39,106 nucleotides of DNA, taken from Sulfurovum sp. GTDB lineage: Bacteria; Campylobacterota; Campylobacteria; Campylobacterales; Sulfurovaceae. Below, piece after piece: positions 9,124 through 16,497 of the stretch. The translations under genes and the position numbers were made by a program. Under the pieces are notes generated by a model. It ran no database searches, had not been told where the DNA came from, and saw only the letters and a program-made list of their open reading frames with translations. Location: NCBI GenBank assembly GCA_012329065.1, contig JAAXPZ010000082.1:1-39106 (forward strand), in the 5' to 3' direction. Numbering within the stretch: position 1 is the stretch's first letter; each line of letters begins with the position of its first letter.

Positions 9124-10176
9124 ATGAAAATACTAGTCTCTGCGCTGGAGCACTCTGCCAATATACATCTAAAGTCGCTACTACATCACCTACCTGAAGA
9201 CACTGAGCTTTTAGGTATATTTGACAAAGATCTAGGTGAACCGATAGTCGATTTACAGGCGGAAGCTGTCATGGGTTATGTGGATGCTATAAAAAAAATA
9301 GGGTTTTATCTAAAGCTTGCCAAACAGATGGTAGACTTGGCAGACAAAGCAGATAAAATACTTCTTATAGACTCATCTGGCTTCAATCTTCCTCTATCGA
9401 AAAAAATCAAAAATAAGTATCCAAACAAAGAGATTATATATTATATTTTGCCAGAAGCATGGGCGTGGAAAAAAGGGCGTATCAAAAAACTAGAAAACAG
9501 AATCGATACACTCGCTTCTATTCTCCCATTTGAAAAAGAATATTATGCTCCTGACATCAATATCAGATATATCGGGCATCCTCTGCTTGATCAGATAAAA
9601 GAATTCAAAACTGCTATCAATGATAATATCGAAACGATAACATATATGCCTGGCTCACGAAAAAGTATCATTCGCAAGCTAATGCCTATCTTTAGAGACA
9701 TAGCAGGAAAACTAAAGAAAAAGGCTATAGTTGTGATTCCTAATCATTTTTCACAAGAGGAGACAAATGAACTTTATGGTAATCTTAAAGGGTTTAGAGT
9801 AGAACGAGATGGTAGAAAAGCTCTACTAGAGAGTGATTTTGCCTTTATCTGCAAAGGCACTGCTACATTAGAGGCTTCTTTGATAGGAACACCATTTGTA
9901 CTAGTGTATAAATTTGCTTTCTTGGACTATATTGTATATAAATTACTAGTCAAAATTAAGTTTATAGGCTTAGGGAATATCCTACTCAAAGCATACCAAA
10001 ATAGAGTGTTGCATCCAGAGCTAATACAACATGAAGTGATAGCTCAAAATTTGATTGGTACTATGCAAGCAGTGGACAGAAGAGCATTTTATCATGATTC
10101 ATTAAATCTGATAGAATATCTACAGCATGGAAGTGCCAAGAATATTGCTAAAATCATAACAAAGAAGAAAACATGA
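9124..10176 (+). CDS. lpxB: Lipid-A-disaccharide synthase
   Basis: The 350-aa GT-B glycosyltransferase is slightly shorter than the roughly 380 aa of E. coli LpxB. It joins UDP-2,3-diacyl-glucosamine to lipid X at the inner face of the inner membrane. Family landmarks in order are the divergent N-terminal loop SALEHSANIH, LIDSSGFN with D83 matching the essential D98 of E. coli, ILPEAWAWKKGR, YIGHPLLDQI, MPGSRKS with the donor-site arginine, and KGTATLEASLIGTPFVL. It starts a tightly packed operon: its stop overlaps the next ATG in ATGA (10173-10176). The following genes would modify or acylate the sugar that LpxB later uses. Confidence 0.93.
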   Translation: MKILVSALEHSANIHLKSLLHHLPEDTELLGIFDKDLGEPIVDLQAEAVMGYVDAIKKIGFYLKLAKQMVDLADKADKILLIDSSGFNLPLSKKIKNKYPNKEIIYYILPEAWAWKKGRIKKLENRIDTLASILPFEKEYYAPDINIRYIGHPLLDQIKEFKTAINDNIETITYMPGSRKSIIRKLMPIFRDIAGKLKKKAIVVIPNHFSQEETNELYGNLKGFRVERDGRKALLESDFAFICKGTATLEASLIGTPFVLVYKFAFLDYIVYKLLVKIKFIGLGNILLKAYQNRVLHPELIQHEVIAQNLIGTMQAVDRRAFYHDSLNLIEYLQHGSAKNIAKIITKKKT

Positions 10177-11270
10177 AGATAAATTTTATAGATCTACAGG
10201 CCCAATATAAAGCATATAAAGAAGAAATAGACAAAGAGGTGCTTGAGGTGATGAGTTCAGCCCAATTTATTGGTGGAGAAAAGCTCAAAAAGCTTGAGGA
10301 TAATCTTGCCATATATACTGGAGCCAAACACGCCATAGGATGCAGTAGTGGAACAGATGCTTTACTATTATCTTTGATGGCACTTGATATTGGTGCAGGT
10401 GACGAAGTGATCACTACACCATTTACTTTTATTGCTACAGCAGAGGTCATAGCTTTGCTTGGAGCCAAATCTATTTTTGTAGATATAGAAGAGGATAACT
10501 ACAATATTGATCCCGCACTCATAGAGGCTGCTATTACAAAAAATACCAAGGCTATCATGCCTGTTTCACTCTATGGACAATGTGCAGATATGGATGCCAT
10601 AAATGACATAGCAGTCAAGTATGATACTCCTGTCATAGAAGATGCCTGCCAAAGCTTTGGTGCTACCTATAAAGGCAAAAAGTCCTGCAACTTATCTACT
10701 ATCGGATGCACCTCGTTTTTCCCGTCTAAACCATTGGGTGCTTATGGTGATGGAGGGGCTATATTTACTTCTGATGACGCTCTGGCAGAAAAGATTAGAA
10801 TGCTTCTAAATCATGGTCAAAACGAGAGGTACAGACACAAATACATAGGCATAAACGGAAGGCTAGATGCCATACAGGCAGCAGTGTTGAATGTCAAACT
10901 AGCATACTTTCATGAAGAGGTGACCAAAAGAGAAGAGATAGGGGCAAGATATAGCAATCTACTCTCAAGTACTAATGTTAGCACTCCTAAAATAGATGAG
11001 CACAATACAAGCGTATATGCACAATACTCCGTAAGAGCTCAAAACAGAGAAACACTAGCTAAACATCTCCAATCCAAAGATATTCCCACAGCAGTGCATT
11101 ATCCTATGCCACTACACCTACAAGAAGCGTTTGCTGATCTTGGTTATAGCTTAGGAGATTTTCCACTATCTGAAAAAATCAGTCAAGAGATTATGTCGTT
11201 ACCTATGAGCCCATTCCTCAAAAAAGAACAGCAAAACTTTATTGTGGACGCCATCAAGGAGATATCGTGA
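10173..11270 (+). CDS. gnnB: DegT/DnrJ/EryC1-type aminotransferase, probable GnnB
   Basis: The 365-aa PLP enzyme is of the sugar aminotransferase class. The expected residues are present: SSGTDALLL for phosphate binding (58-66), EDACQ (156-160) holding the cofactor, and SFFPSKPLGAYGDGG with the Schiff-base lysine K186. DegT enzymes aminate nucleotide-linked keto sugars. GnnB makes UDP-GlcNAc3N from the 3-keto sugar formed by GnnA. In Acidithiobacillus ferrooxidans gnnA and gnnB lie between lpxA and lpxB, and the order here (lpxB, this gene, an oxidoreductase, an LpxA-like gene) repeats that. A WbpE-like role in O-antigen sugar synthesis is the main alternative. It overlaps both neighbours and is probably translationally coupled. 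Confidence 0.85.
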   Translation: MKINFIDLQAQYKAYKEEIDKEVLEVMSSAQFIGGEKLKKLEDNLAIYTGAKHAIGCSSGTDALLLSLMALDIGAGDEVITTPFTFIATAEVIALLGAKSIFVDIEEDNYNIDPALIEAAITKNTKAIMPVSLYGQCADMDAINDIAVKYDTPVIEDACQSFGATYKGKKSCNLSTIGCTSFFPSKPLGAYGDGGAIFTSDDALAEKIRMLLNHGQNERYRHKYIGINGRLDAIQAAVLNVKLAYFHEEVTKREEIGARYSNLLSSTNVSTPKIDEHNTSVYAQYSVRAQNRETLAKHLQSKDIPTAVHYPMPLHLQEAFADLGYSLGDFPLSEKISQEIMSLPMSPFLKKEQQNFIVDAIKEIS

Positions 11271-12166
11271 TGAAAGTAGCCATTATTGGCTTGGGTGCAA
11301 TGGGTAAAAACCATTACCGTATCCTCAAAGAGCTTGAAGAAGCTGTTACTATAGTTGGGCTCTGCGATACTGTAGCTCTATATGGATATAATGAACCATG
11401 CTTTGTGGAAGTAGGTGATATGCTTGACAACACCAAGCCTGAAGCGGTTGTCATTGCAACACCTACTTTTTTGCACAAAGATATGGCACTTCAATGCATA
11501 AGCAGAGGTATTCATATCTTTATAGAAAAACCTGCTGCTGCTACAGTAGAAGATGCCAAAATTATCCAAAAAGCTGCTCAAGCTAAAGATGTCAGAAGTT
11601 GCATAGGTCATGTAGAGCGCTTCAATCCTGTAGTGCAAGCACTTCAAAATGAGCTAAAAAATAGAGAGATTTATACTATCTCTATCACTAGAGTAGGTCC
11701 TTTTCCTCCACGAATAGCAGATGTAGGTGTGCTGACTGACTTATCTGTACATGATATTGATCTCATGCGATTTATTACCGATAGAGAGATCAAGAATCAG
11801 GCGATATTTAAATCACAAAAAATACATAACCACCATGAAGATAATGCTGTACTAAACTTCGAATTAGATGACAATATCGTAGCAAATATCCTTACAAACT
11901 GGTTAACACCATTCAAAAAAAGAGTCATAGAAGTAGCGTGTAAGCAAGTATACCTAGAAGCTGACCTTATCACACAAAACCTCACAGAATACTCCGGCTA
12001 CAGCAAGCATAACTCTTATGTGGTCAGAGACTGCCATATCAAAAAGGATGAGCCACTGCTAAAAGAAATGGAAGCATTTGTACACTATGTAGAAACTGGA
12101 GCAATAGGCTCTCTAGCAAGTATAGAAGACAGTATCATTACACTAGAAGTTGCTACTCAGGTATGA
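11270..12166 (+). CDS. gnnA: Gfo/Idh/MocA-type sugar dehydrogenase, probable GnnA
   Basis: The protein is 298 aa from ATG 11270, or one codon longer from GTG 11267; AAGGAG sits just upstream of both. The N-terminal Rossmann motif is IIGLGAMGKNHYRIL. The family EKP motif (FIEKPAA, K87) and the substrate-side HVERFNP and DLSVHDIDL motifs are all present. GnnA oxidises the 3-hydroxyl of UDP-GlcNAc so that GnnB can aminate it, giving a lipid A precursor that takes an amide-linked rather than ester-linked acyl chain. The assignment rests on the partner genes; WbpB-like dehydrogenases have the same fold. Both ends overlap neighbours, and the downstream junction is ATGA. Confidence 0.83.
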   Translation: MKVAIIGLGAMGKNHYRILKELEEAVTIVGLCDTVALYGYNEPCFVEVGDMLDNTKPEAVVIATPTFLHKDMALQCISRGIHIFIEKPAAATVEDAKIIQKAAQAKDVRSCIGHVERFNPVVQALQNELKNREIYTISITRVGPFPPRIADVGVLTDLSVHDIDLMRFITDREIKNQAIFKSQKIHNHHEDNAVLNFELDDNIVANILTNWLTPFKKRVIEVACKQVYLEADLITQNLTEYSGYSKHNSYVVRDCHIKKDEPLLKEMEAFVHYVETGAIGSLASIEDSIITLEVATQV

Positions 12167-12882
12167 TTCACCCAACAGCAAAGGTTGACGCATCAGTGCA
12201 AATAGGAGCAGGTGTTACAATAGGAGCATTTTGCAATATTGGCAAAGGTGTTACTATACAAAATGGAGTCACTCTTGAGCCTCATGTCAATATTAAAGGT
12301 CACACAAACATAGATGAAAATACACATATATTTCCATTTGCAGAGATTGGAAACGATGTGGCAAGTGTTCGTATAGGAAAAAGATGTCATATCCGAGAAT
12401 TTACAAAAATTGGCATATGCTGTATTGAGGATACAAAGATAGAAATCAAGGACGACTGCTATATCATGGCATATGCTGATATAAGATCTGCTGTAGTCAT
12501 AGACCAAAGTTGTATCATTACCAACAATGTTGTATTACACTCAAATAGCAGATGTGGTCCAAAGGTAATCATTGGAGCCAAAGCAACGGTTGCTAAAAAT
12601 TGTATTGTAGGTACTGGATCAATGATAGGTGGTGTTTCGACCGTCAAGAGTAATATTCCACCATTTTGCTTAGTCGAAGGTTTTCCTTTGGCCTCGATAA
12701 GAGGGTTAAATCTGATAGGGATGAGGAGAAGCTTTGAGAACAGAGAGAGCATATCTCATGTAAAAAAAGCCTTTATGCATCTTAAGAAGTCACAATTCTC
12801 AGCCTCAGAAGCTCAGAAATTATTACCTTCGATTTCAGATACACGAGCAAAACAATTTGTTGAATTTATCGCTTCGCATTAA
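12163..12882 (+). CDS. LpxA-like left-handed beta-helix acyltransferase lacking catalytic histidines
   Basis: The 239-aa protein (usual LpxA about 260) has hexapeptide repeats through residue 165, then LpxA-specific features: IREF (78-81), MAYA (102-105), the chain-length ruler region MIGG (154-157) and GLNLIGMRR (181-189). Residues 102-189 align without gaps to the matching part of E. coli LpxA. In that alignment H122, H125 (general base), H144, H160 and H191 fall on D106, S109, N128, A144 and P175, while R204 matches R188. It is therefore not a normal O-acyltransferase. It may N-acylate the 3-amino sugar by another mechanism, be an inactive partner subunit, or be a sugar N-acetyltransferase. 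It ends the lpxB operon and converges with the response regulator gene, the stops overlapping by four bases. Confidence 0.8.
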   Translation: MIHPTAKVDASVQIGAGVTIGAFCNIGKGVTIQNGVTLEPHVNIKGHTNIDENTHIFPFAEIGNDVASVRIGKRCHIREFTKIGICCIEDTKIEIKDDCYIMAYADIRSAVVIDQSCIITNNVVLHSNSRCGPKVIIGAKATVAKNCIVGTGSMIGGVSTVKSNIPPFCLVEGFPLASIRGLNLIGMRRSFENRESISHVKKAFMHLKKSQFSASEAQKLLPSISDTRAKQFVEFIASH

Positions 12883-14141
12883 TAAATAACGACTTTATTT
12901 CTACCACCTAACTTTGCTTTGTAGAGTGCTGCATCTGCTTTTCTAAAGAGAGACAAGTTGTCATTGTCCTTCATAAGAGCAACGCCAAAACTACAGGTCA
13001 TAGAGATATCATGACAAAATAAGTGAGACTCTATAATCCTTCTTAATTCATCCGCCAGTGCACAGGCACCTTTCAAATCTGTGTCTGGAAGCAAGATTAC
13101 AAACTCTTCGCCACCCCACCTCACAAATAAATCCCTACTACGAACCTGATCCTCAATAAGCTTACTAAGCTCAATCAATACTTCATCTCCTATTGTATGC
13201 CCATACTGATCATTGATCTCTTTGAAGTAGTCTATATCTATCACTATCATGCTCAGATTCTTTTTTTCATCTTTGGCTTTTTGTATTTCAAGATCAAGCT
13301 GCTTGTTGAGCATTGCACGATTATGTAGCTGAGTGAGGTCGTCTTTGTATACTCTATTTTGATACATTTTTTTCTCCTCTTCCATCTTTGTAACTTCAGA
13401 AAGAGAAAGAATAGTGTGCTTACTTTCTGCTACATATGTAATATCTACAGCATATGTCTTAACTTTTTCTTTATTGTACTGCTTGAGTGCTATGATTCTC
13501 CGATGAGGCTCCAATAGCTGGATTTCTTCTATCCAGCTTCTTCCACTTTGATGTGACGGATAAAAACAGTCTTCTCTTTTGACCATGTTTTCAGCAAGTA
13601 CTCGGTTTTTCAAAATAGCCTCTTCAACTGTTGCTATGCCTAAAAATGACAATGCTTTATCATTCAGAAACAGAAGTTCTTTCTTTTTATCGATAACAGC
13701 TAGCAAGCTTCCCTGAAGATGTGCTATCTCATTCATAATAGTTTTTTGCTCATCATACTGCTTCTTTAATATAATTCGCTCACTTAATTCTATAATTTTT
13801 TTATCCAATTTTTTTAAATCGATGGGCTTAAGTATATAGCCATCCACCTGTAAATCAATGGCCTCCAAAAAATAGTCACTGTCACTATGTGCTGTTGTCA
13901 ATATTACTGCCTGAGTAGGATTGATTTCTCTTACTGCTTTAATCATATCTATACCATTTATTTTTGGCATTTTGATATCTGATATTACGATATCAGGATG
14001 ACAGGCATGGAACGCCTCCAGCCCTTCTTTCCCATTACTTGCTACACAGAGTTTATTAGTTGTATATCGCTGTAAAAACTCACCAAGTTCTCTTCTTATC
14101 ATGGGTTCATCTTCCACAAAAAGTATCTTGAGTTGCTCCAT
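12879..14141 (-). CDS. Response regulator with C-terminal GGDEF diguanylate cyclase
   Basis: The protein is 420 aa from ATG 14141; AAAGG lies eight bases upstream and overlaps the end of the kinase gene. A receiver domain (about 1-120) has the acidic pair E10-D11, phosphoacceptor D55 (ISDIKMP), TT switch residues and the lysine in ILKPID. A middle stretch (about 135-255) looks PAS-like but is not clearly assignable. The GGDEF domain carries an active-type GGEEF (343-347) and a complete inhibitory I-site RSRD (334-337). It should make cyclic di-GMP when phosphorylated by the adjacent kinase and be feedback-inhibited by product. The genes are one base apart, so the pair is almost certainly a cognate system. 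Confidence 0.92.
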   Translation of the reverse strand: MEQLKILFVEDEPMIRRELGEFLQRYTTNKLCVASNGKEGLEAFHACHPDIVISDIKMPKINGIDMIKAVREINPTQAVILTTAHSDSDYFLEAIDLQVDGYILKPIDLKKLDKKIIELSERIILKKQYDEQKTIMNEIAHLQGSLLAVIDKKKELLFLNDKALSFLGIATVEEAILKNRVLAENMVKREDCFYPSHQSGRSWIEEIQLLEPHRRIIALKQYNKEKVKTYAVDITYVAESKHTILSLSEVTKMEEEKKMYQNRVYKDDLTQLHNRAMLNKQLDLEIQKAKDEKKNLSMIVIDIDYFKEINDQYGHTIGDEVLIELSKLIEDQVRSRDLFVRWGGEEFVILLPDTDLKGACALADELRRIIESHLFCHDISMTCSFGVALMKDNDNLSLFRKADAALYKAKLGGRNKVVIY

Positions 14142-14142
14142 T

Positions 14143-16497
14143 TTACAAACCTTTGAAATCAAGCATTATCGAAGTGATGCCGTCATATGATACCATAGAT
14201 ATCTTGCCACCTAATTTTTCCTCTATGATAATTCTTGACATATACAGTCCAATACCGATACCATCTCGCTTAGTTGTAAAATAAGAATCAAATATTTTGT
14301 CCTGAAACTTCTCTTGTACTCCTCCTCCATTATCCGTAAAGACAATAACTCTATCCTCGAAAGAAACTTCAATTTTTCTATCTTTACTTCTGAATGCAAC
14401 CAGTGCATCTTTTGCATTGCTAATTAAACTTAAAATAACTTGTTGAAATTCACTTTGAAACCCATTTATTTCAAAGTCGTTACCATTTATTTCAAAAGAT
14501 ATGTCATACTTCTCTAGATATAATGACTGCATAGAAAATGTTGCGTCTATACTCTCTCTGACACTGAAACTCTCTTTGACTTTATCCACTTTAAAAAATC
14601 CTCTAAAGTCATCTATAGTCTGACTCATAAATTTAATTGTTTTGAGATTTTTGTCGATATACTTCTCTATAAACTCTTGATTTAGTAGATTATCCTTATG
14701 ATTGAATTCTAGATTCTGAATACTTAATCCAAGAGCATTAAGTGGCTGTCTCCATTGATGTGCAATTACACCAATCATCTCTCCCATAGCGGCCATTTTG
14801 GCTTGCTCTTGCATAGATTGATACTGAATTAAGTTTTCATGAACTTTATCTTGAATCTCTTTTTGTAGATTTTTATTTGCACCTTTGAGAATATGTTGCC
14901 TGTAAAGTATCAAAAAAAGTATCACAATAGCCACAGAGAGAAGATACCAAAAATATCGATAATCCTGTGACTGGACAAGTTTCTTGTTGTCTCCCCACTT
15001 ATCATGTATCTCTTTATATTGATAATCTGTAATTTCCGAGAGAGCTGCATCTATCCTCTCAAACAAATCTTTGTCGTTCTTGGTTATCGCCATAGATAAT
15101 CTATATCGCATATCTAAATATCCAGCGACATATAGGTTTTTCAAAGCAAACTTGTTGATATAGTATGAAGCAACTGGTAGTGTAACTACCGTACAATAAG
15201 CTTCACCTTCAGACACTTTTTTTAAAGAGCTTTTATAATCTTTTGTCTCAATTATATCTATTTGTGGATATACTTTTCGTAGTTTTGATATAAGCCCTGA
15301 TCCTTGTTTTCTAGCGATTGTTTTGTCGGCAATATCGCCCAAGCCTTCGATAAAAGGCTTATCATTTTTTGTGATAACTGCCAGTTTGTAAACCAAATAC
15401 GGGACAGTAAAGTTTGCATACTCTTTTCTTCGCTCTGTTTCAATGGCAGCAGGCAGAACCTCACATTTTCCTTTCTCAAGAAACTCCTGAGACTGCTTCC
15501 AGCTTTTGGTAGGAATTGTTTTGAACTCAACATTAAGTTTTTTTTCTATCAGGCTAAGTGTATCTATCGCAATACCTTGCATAATGGACTGATCACCTCC
15601 ATGAGCAAACTCTATAGGTGCCCAGTTGGGATTATTGCACATTGTCACTATTCTTTTTTGCTTATACGGCTTTACAATACTTTTAGTATCTAACTTATGG
15701 TGGGCATTTACATAACCAAGCCATCCACTCATAAGCACAGACAGCTCCTCGTCATTAATGCTGTACATCGCTTTTTGCAACAGGTTTCTAAGCAATTCAA
15801 GATGAGAAGCGGTAGCTATACTTAAACCTACTGCTAGTCTTCTATCAGGTATAATTACTTCATGCTCTATGCTTATATTGTTCTCTTTTATTAGATAGCT
15901 CATAATGGCGTGACTACCTACGGTTGCGTCACTAGAACCTTTTACAACAGACTTCATGCAGTCCAACAGTGATGCTCCTCTGATCAAAACAATATCAGGA
16001 TAATACGCCTCAAGAAAATAATCTATATAAAAATCCCTAGGGACACAAACTGATTTTCCTTTCAGGTTTTTCAGATTTTTTAGGAACGGACTGTTTGTTA
16101 AAATTGCTTTGTTGGTAGCAGCATATGGTTCAGTAAAGTTGAGAAATTCATCTCTTTTGGGTGTTCTACGAATATTGAGCATGACATCCAGCTTGCCATT
16201 CCTCATCATCTGCATAAAGTCGCTCCACTCATATCCGCTGATATACTTCACTTTAATACCAATCTTGTTTGCCAATAGGTTCATATAATCGATTGAGAGG
16301 CCCATAGGAGTGCCATTTTTATTGAAGTTATAAGGAGGATAGTTTTTTTCATTGTGCACGGTGATGACAGGGTTCTGTTTTAAAAATGCTTTCTCTGCAT
16401 CATCTAGCTGTATTTCTGAGCCAGAAGCTGAATGTAGAATTATACTGAGCACAAAGATGCACAATATATATAAATATAATTTTTTAAACTGTCTCAA
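14143..16497 (-). CDS. Hybrid-sensor histidine kinase with two periplasmic SBP_bac_3 domains
   Basis: The protein is 784 aa. TTG 16497 is the only reasonable in-frame start before a stop, with GGGG ten bases upstream. An N-terminal hydrophobic segment (7-22) is followed by two tandem periplasmic binding-protein domains (about 32-262 and 280-502), a membrane helix at 515-532 and a short coiled stretch. The kinase core has H-box H580 in IAHQWRQPLN, N-box SNAKDA (693-698), G1 DNGGG and G2 DGIGIGLYM. Both sensor domains keep the amino-acid-binding family look (YPPYNF, NWAPIEF). It would sense small solutes in the periplasm and pass phosphate to the downstream GGDEF regulator. It follows hemC on the same strand after a 60-bp gap. 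Confidence 0.92.
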   Translation of the reverse strand: MRQFKKLYLYILCIFVLSIILHSASGSEIQLDDAEKAFLKQNPVITVHNEKNYPPYNFNKNGTPMGLSIDYMNLLANKIGIKVKYISGYEWSDFMQMMRNGKLDVMLNIRRTPKRDEFLNFTEPYAATNKAILTNSPFLKNLKNLKGKSVCVPRDFYIDYFLEAYYPDIVLIRGASLLDCMKSVVKGSSDATVGSHAIMSYLIKENNISIEHEVIIPDRRLAVGLSIATASHLELLRNLLQKAMYSINDEELSVLMSGWLGYVNAHHKLDTKSIVKPYKQKRIVTMCNNPNWAPIEFAHGGDQSIMQGIAIDTLSLIEKKLNVEFKTIPTKSWKQSQEFLEKGKCEVLPAAIETERRKEYANFTVPYLVYKLAVITKNDKPFIEGLGDIADKTIARKQGSGLISKLRKVYPQIDIIETKDYKSSLKKVSEGEAYCTVVTLPVASYYINKFALKNLYVAGYLDMRYRLSMAITKNDKDLFERIDAALSEITDYQYKEIHDKWGDNKKLVQSQDYRYFWYLLSVAIVILFLILYRQHILKGANKNLQKEIQDKVHENLIQYQSMQEQAKMAAMGEMIGVIAHQWRQPLNALGLSIQNLEFNHKDNLLNQEFIEKYIDKNLKTIKFMSQTIDDFRGFFKVDKVKESFSVRESIDATFSMQSLYLEKYDISFEINGNDFEINGFQSEFQQVILSLISNAKDALVAFRSKDRKIEVSFEDRVIVFTDNGGGVQEKFQDKIFDSYFTTKRDGIGIGLYMSRIIIEEKLGGKISMVSYDGITSIMLDFKGL

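Follow-up and report, generated by a model that had tools for sequence, protein, structure and literature searches.

The gnn-type operon and gene A

The window, meaning the whole stretch of DNA that was analysed, is 39,106 nucleotides long and comes from Sulfurovum sp. (contig JAAXPZ010000082.1 of assembly GCA_012329065.1). It is contig C68 of our genome G000, which comprises 1.94 Mb in 82 contigs and is rated 100% complete. The window contains an operon with the gene order lpxB-gnnB-gnnA-A, in which the gene ends overlap and A is the last gene. The features needed below are as follows, where B is a second LpxA encoded elsewhere in the genome and published residues are numbered as in E. coli LpxA.

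9124..10176, + strand: lpxB (lipid A disaccharide synthase), gene 1 of the operon; TIGR00215 258.7 bits, cut-off 190
10173..11270, + strand: gnnB-like DegT/DnrJ/EryC1 aminotransferase; PF01041 402 bits; adjoins gnnA and A at all loci examined
11267..12166, + strand: gnnA-like UDP-GlcNAc 3-dehydrogenase (Gfo/Idh/MocA family); NF040723 231.7 bits, below the cut-off of 450
12163..12882, + strand: gene A, an LpxA homologue without the catalytic side, proposed UDP/acyl-groove subunit; ATG at 12163, stop codon ending at 12882, 239 aa
12349..12369, + strand: site of the deleted sugar-pocket loop (E. coli Q73-K76; A residues 63-69); gap at 73-76 in 22/22 A-type sequences
12391..12402, + strand: IREF motif (A residues 77-80; E. 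coli R93, E94), kept in A and lost in B
12478..12492, + strand: D106 to A110, replacing H122...H125-D126 (catalytic dyad), by alignment
12541..12546, + strand: S127 N128, replacing G143 (oxyanion hole) and H144, by alignment
12592..12597, + strand: A144 K145, replacing H160 and Q161, by alignment
12709..12729, + strand: N183 to R189 (NLIGMRR), UDP pocket N198/G201/R204, kept in A and lost in B

A sequence-only reading of this DNA had placed an LpxA-like protein at 12163-12882, within a gnn-type operon. Both points hold: the coordinates are exact, the 239-residue product is LpxA-like over its whole length, and gnnB-like and gnnA-like genes lie directly upstream. The operon therefore has the adjacent 3-dehydrogenase and DegT transaminase that the GnnA/GnnB pathway requires, and which in known cases make UDP-GlcNAc3N (PMC5644692, PMC8036547). 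The match of A to LpxA (PDB 1LXA, E=2.8e-29) extends over residues 2-237, and the Hexapep (PF00132) and Acetyltransf_11 (PF13720) domains both score over their cut-offs, which by sequence corresponds to the hexapeptide left-handed helix followed by the C-terminal domain of LpxA. A falls below the curated LpxA cut-offs (TIGR01852, 176 bits against 231; PRK05289, 183 bits against 226). However, B is also below the TIGR01852 cut-off (217 bits), and the cut-off alone is therefore not decisive.

Structure prediction for A gave no usable model. AlphaFold2, run on a 5-row alignment, gave a model with pLDDT 77, for which the Foldseek matches were right-handed helices (pectate lyases, tailspikes), none of them at E<=0.001. 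The fold is probably of the wrong handedness, arising from the shallow alignment. Single-sequence folding gave a pLDDT of 48.

Genes for a GGDEF response regulator and for a histidine kinase whose sensor sequence is of the periplasmic-binding type converge on the end of A, at 12879-16497 on the minus strand, an arrangement also kept in the genomes G001 and G002.

Residues lost and kept in A

Residue alignments were made with E. coli LpxA and 25-50 canonical relatives, together with 22 A-type sequences. They bear out the losses listed in the sequence-only reading (H122, H125, H144 and H160 become D106, S109, N128 and A144), and they also place R189 of A at the conserved R204. The change at H191, which had been counted as a fifth lost histidine, is real but carries no evidence, because canonical LpxA of the order usually has R, K or H at this position. 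The claim that this part of the protein aligns without a gap fails close to residue 191, where sequences of the genus carry one extra residue (near 174-176).

The losses go further than had been noticed, and include D126, G143, Q161, F162 and the C-terminal KRGIP tail, while the sugar-pocket loop Q73-D74-L75-K76 is wholly deleted between residues 63 and 69 of A. The catalytic dyad H125-D126 and the oxyanion G143 are thus absent (S109, A110 and S127 in A, lost in 22/22 A-type sequences), and so is the GlcNAc pocket formed by the Q73-K76 loop, H144 and Q161 (loop deleted, N128, K145). The UDP pocket is present, in the form of N183 (N198), R189 (R204), M154 (M170) and M102 (M118).

The same pattern is found throughout the A-type proteins. 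In the 22 sequences the canonical residue is gone at 122, 125, 126, 143, 144, 160, 161 and 162, the sole exception being one H at 160, whereas M118, M170, N198, G201 and R204 are kept in all 22 wherever sequence exists. Residue loss in these proteins is not random. Positions 125 and 144 vary freely, 125 being S, A, P, N, D, F or G with no conserved replacement, and no conserved histidine is found in the cleft. Four residues, F59, T120, C131 and G152 (window 12289-12645), do not vary among the aligned A-type proteins and do not occur in canonical LpxA.

The second LpxA of the genome

The sequence-only reading had suggested looking for a second, canonical lpxA, possibly near fabZ. Such a copy exists, but it is not normal, in that its UDP/acyl-groove side has been lost. 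This protein, B (P0002, 263 aa, L001:1471-2262 on the minus strand of contig C43), is encoded between fabZ and clpX. It keeps Q73, D74, H122, H125, D126, G143, H144, H160 and Q161. B and its congeners lack R93, E94, Y120, I134, N137, G155, M170, G173, A174, S175, G201 and R203, and by majority R204; M118 and N198 are kept in the B of the window genome and are gone in the B of congeners. A and B are 24% identical, compared with approximately 31-38% for A and 36-43% for B against canonical LpxA of other genera.

Single LpxA proteins that lack part of the C-terminal UDP motif do exist (H. pylori 1J2Z and that of genome G037), so that the loss of R204 from B is, taken alone, weak and not decisive. 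What carries the argument is the joint loss from B of R93, E94, N137, M170, G173, S175, G201 and R203-R204.

No third LpxA was found in the window genome, where the next match after A and B is LpxD. Nevertheless lpxC, lpxD, lpxB and lpxK are present, and across the genus lpxC and lpxB are each found in 5/5 genomes, with one LpxB match per genome, that is, the operon copy only. The retention of these genes where there is no third LpxA counts in favour of A and B acting as a pair.

Complementary halves of the active site

Published structures place the active site of LpxA where two adjacent subunits meet. In the E. coli structure 2QIA, one subunit contributes Q73, L75, K76, H99, H122, H125, D126, G143, H144 and Q161, and the adjacent one N198 and R205 (PMC6286764). 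The same subunit split is given in Table 1 of PMC7072397, which adds M118, M170 and R204 to the UDP side. In a third paper (PMC6408518) the chain assignment of some contacts disagrees with these two, and the two that agree were used here.

When the conserved published pocket positions are divided in this way, A keeps 6/7 on the UDP side and 0/13 on the catalytic side (P=0.0002), while B keeps 0/7 and 10/13, respectively (P=0.003). The complementarity extends beyond the pocket. Fifty canonical LpxA have 72 columns that are at least 95% conserved, and of these 34 are retained by the genus in B alone, 15 in A alone and 19 in both. Only 4/72 are kept in neither, against 10.0 expected (P=0.0013). 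When residues 105-185 are placed in the 18-residue register of the helix, 9/9 A-only columns lie in one sector and 15/15 B-only columns in the rest, and the 13 columns that the literature lists do not contain follow the rule as well (P=0.0006). As the sector was chosen post hoc, we regard this result as supporting, not independent, evidence.

At the level of sequence, each partner is without what the other supplies at the shared interface, as would be expected of an obligate enzyme-pseudoenzyme pair. A seems to have retained the substrate-binding half and B the catalytic half, and in this genus neither should work without the other.

Distribution and linkage to gnnA

A model built from the A-type alignment (A1) separates A-type proteins (at least 218 bits) from canonical LpxA (at most 181 bits), and was applied to 175 genomes of the family and 399 of the order. 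A-type proteins are found in 5/5 genomes of the window's genus, g1 (where contig ends truncate some copies), in 20 genomes of another family, f16, in the MAG Campylobacterales AP10.010 (L055), and in G156 and G103, two MAGs of genus g4 that are both incomplete, the copy of G103 being cut short. The B type is found in genus g1 only, in 4/5 genomes, the fifth being 80% complete; the sample is thus four sequences from one genus, and the g1 relatives are fragmented MAGs.

Outside genus g1 the second LpxA is intact. Each A-bearing f16 genome has one, and 20/20 keep the full set of tabulated pocket residues. G156 and AP10.010 likewise carry an intact LpxA, in the fabZ-lpxA-clpX position. Since the f16 partner is intact, A cannot be essential in f16 for the reason proposed below for genus g1, which counts against the proposal.

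The linkage of A to the gnn genes is tight. At every complete or partial A-type locus examined gnnB-gnnA precede A, and lpxB lies ahead of them wherever the flank reaches; the sole deviating locus (L054) begins inside A, and its upstream part is another contig (L130). In the order, gnnA is found in 82/399 genomes, namely the window genome, exactly the 20 A-bearing f16 genomes, and 61 genomes of other families without A. In the window's family it is found in 7/175, which are the five g1 genomes together with G103 and G156, both of which have A.

Presence of gnnA does not in itself predict loss of the histidines. Nine genomes of other families that carry gnnA (G055, G049, G264 with two copies, G209, G260, G493, G502, G037 and G052) encode ten LpxA proteins in which all histidines are kept, and all ten keep H122, H125, D126, H144, H160 and Q161. 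They are also all kept in 3R0S, which we take to be C. jejuni LpxA. The suggestion that these positions would be non-histidine whenever gnnA and gnnB are adjacent consequently applies to the window's family and to f16, but not in general, G264 having a full-histidine lpxA beside gnnB-gnnA.

Two further observations concern the window's family. In five of its genomes (G009, G019, G028 and G036 of genus g6, and G010) neither query matched an LpxA at E<=1e-10, and three of them (G009, G019, G010) are 95-98% complete; either LPS has been lost or LpxA is very divergent. In G156 and G103 the gnn-A cluster is on small contigs (L061 on contig C91 and L129 on contig C40, respectively) and is most like that of f16 genus g26, which reflects either horizontal transfer or mis-binned contigs.

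Selection and evolutionary history

Pairwise dN/dS is 0.04-0.12 for A-type proteins and 0.135 for one B pair, the values for the more distant pairs, where dS is high, being rough. The A-type clade is under purifying selection, and is neither a pseudogene nor a one-off.

In the phylogenetic tree, A-type proteins form one clade (100/100) and B a separate clade (100/100), each on a long stem (approximately 1.47 and 1.26 changes per column, respectively). The A proteins of genus g1 are sister to those of f16 genus g75 and AP10.010 (100/96). The gnnA genes agree with this tree, the window gnnA being 72% identical to that of g75, and 69-72% identical to the f16 homologues that adjoin A-type genes (genera g60, g75). 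B nests within the canonical LpxA of the window's own family (99/96). A duplication within the genus that gave rise to both A and B is ruled out by the tree and by the AU test (p=3e-15 for a clade of genus A and B). A and B being in separate clades, their complementarity does not reflect shared ancestry. A single clade of all A and B is weakly rejected (p=0.025), as is one of all A together with f16's own LpxA (p=0.012). The stem of A is placed near the LpxA proteins of family f8, which include a gnn-linked one (L108).

The simplest history would be that the lpxB-gnnB-gnnA-A operon entered the genus, that a native lpxB linked to queH then disappeared, and that the native LpxA afterwards lost the face that A could supply. 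G156 has an lpxB adjoining a queH-like gene of the fabZ-lpxA-clpX region (L060), where the window's genus is without lpxB (L128, L133, L134).

A proposed hetero-oligomeric LpxA

On the basis of these observations, we consider it likely that A serves as a subunit without catalytic function in a hetero-oligomeric LpxA, assembling with B in a mixed trimer, and that A is optional in f16 but obligatory in genus g1. We infer the complex, its stoichiometry, its activity and its acceptor from the gene content, residue losses, purifying selection, phylogeny and operon linkage described above. The UDP/acyl-groove face of A would lie against the GlcNAc/catalytic face of B, to form one complete site at the B-A interface. 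To this site B would supply H125-D126, H122, G143, H144, H160, Q161 and the QD loop, and A would supply N198, R204, M118, M170 and G173. A trimer of A only would have no catalytic face, and one of B only would have a damaged UDP and acyl face. From the published geometry, any mixed trimer would contain one interface between a B catalytic side and an A UDP side, and hence one complete site. The composite enzyme would carry out the first acylation of lipid A, with the 3-amino sugar expected from gnnA and gnnB as the probable acceptor. The native LpxA of the genus would since have lost its own UDP side, making the pair mutually dependent.

In f16 the partner LpxA presumably works alone, and A would be a specificity or accessory subunit. 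We speculate that it contributes its own acyl groove and UDP pocket there, perhaps directing a GlcNAc-type LpxA to the 3-amino sugar. The UDP side, which a homotrimer of A could not use, is kept in all 22 A-type sequences wherever sequence exists, and this counts for a partner role. Its retention in every A-type protein, even beside an intact LpxA, is to our mind the strongest single sign that A functions against the catalytic face of another protein. A non-catalytic partner was among the possibilities raised in the sequence-only reading, and it is supported more strongly than could be known from this stretch, since the partner LpxA turns out to have lost the complementary half. Pairing of A with LpxD instead was considered and appears unlikely: LpxD has its own N-terminal uridine-binding domain (PMC6286764) and is full length in the window genome.

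Other explanations must be weighed against this one. A could act by itself as an acyltransferase that uses a new mechanism, such as N-acylation of the 3-amino sugar, in which the more nucleophilic amine would need no general base, with the reaction of B being unrelated or ordinary. The constant adjacency of gnnA and gnnB, the retention of the UDP pocket and acyl groove, and the conserved residues peculiar to A (such as C131, T120, G152 and F59) would all fit. We nevertheless think it unlikely. The sequence-only reading had suggested that the base may be dispensable when the acceptor is an amine, but the nine gnnA-bearing genomes of other families keep every histidine. A new class of N-acyltransferase is likewise opposed by the ten LpxA proteins of these genomes and by the absence of any conserved residue at position 125 of A. 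Moreover the sugar-pocket loop is deleted, 125 and 144 are free to vary and the cleft has no conserved histidine, and the loss of the opposite half of B, only in this genus, would be left unexplained. It is decidedly improbable that A is instead a regulatory subunit, for example one that damps or stabilises LpxA and so tunes lipid A flux or acyl length, with B having changed independently while remaining an active homotrimer. A does coexist with a fully intact LpxA in f16, and some working LpxA proteins tolerate changes at 201-205; however, B has lost approximately 14 otherwise near-invariant positions along one edge, acyl-groove residues included, and such losses occur only where A is present, the 50 canonical LpxA of the order keeping those positions.

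The fast divergence of both proteins, evident from their long stems, might suggest that A and B each act on new and separate substrates, lipid A being initiated otherwise or made poorly in the genus. This is very doubtful, given that the downstream lipid A genes are kept (lpxC and lpxB in 5/5 genomes, lpxD and lpxK in the window genome) and that the losses are split along a known subunit interface. Hardly credible is the remaining explanation, that A is a decaying relic of a gnn-linked lpxA. A has lost all of its catalytic residues and its C-terminal tail, but its frame is open both in the genus and in f16, with partial copies only where some contigs end, its dN/dS is low and its UDP side is strictly retained. 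A pseudogene is ruled out by that dN/dS and by the 22 aligned A-type sequences. Nor is A a relic beside a normal lpxA, as had also been suggested, because it is under purifying selection and the fabZ-side lpxA is not normal.

Comparison with known systems

LpxA, a target in antibacterial design, is regarded as a homotrimer that needs no other subunit. Its known forms (TIGR01852, PRK05289; PDB 1LXA, 2QIA, 2JF3) share with the proteins described here full-length homology, the hexapeptide helix and the Acetyltransf_11 domain, with the UDP-pocket residues present in A and the catalytic and GlcNAc-pocket residues in B. The difference is that the known homotrimer has three identical sites, whereas here neither protein has a whole one, A being without the H125-D126 dyad, the oxyanion glycine and the sugar-pocket loop, and B without the UDP side.

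The clustering of lpxB, gnnB, gnnA and an lpxA-type gene resembles the GnnA-GnnB-LpxA route to GlcN3N lipid A of A. ferrooxidans, C. jejuni and Leptospira. In the gnnA-bearing genomes of other families examined, however, LpxA keeps all its histidines, and catalytic His120 is listed for L. interrogans LpxA (PMC7072397), while the gnn-linked LpxA described here appears catalytically empty and a second LpxA would be needed.

Trypanosome deoxyhypusine synthase and AdoMetDC-prozyme are enzyme-pseudoenzyme pairs with shared interface sites, in which an inactive paralogue completes or activates its partner, as A is proposed to do. The fold and pathway differ from those of A and B, each of which has lost the half that the other keeps, and the inactive partner would have come with a transferred operon.

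In the literature searched we found no paper on a split or hetero-oligomeric LpxA, and the only mention of an lpxA duplication found was for Geobacter sulfurreducens (PMC3087551). As far as that literature shows, a hetero-oligomeric LpxA with divided half-sites would be undescribed. If the proposal is correct, its stages survive side by side, as intact LpxA alone, intact LpxA with A, and decayed LpxA with A, and how an optional partner becomes obligatory would be a directly testable question. It would also mean that 'lpxA' annotations in these bacteria may each cover only half an enzyme.

A similar arrangement is the tandem pair of G264 (family f8; L108), in which one of two LpxA is linked to gnnB-gnnA (lpxB-lpxA-gnnB-gnnA-fabZ-lpxA-clpX), but both copies keep all histidines and the UDP side. 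In its gnn-linked copy, D74 (S) and K76 (G) are the only changes among the tabulated pocket residues. It is worth adding that the change of K76 to G is also present in G055, G260, G502 and L. interrogans LpxA (PMC7072397, Table 1), and may be a mark of 3-amino-sugar specificity.
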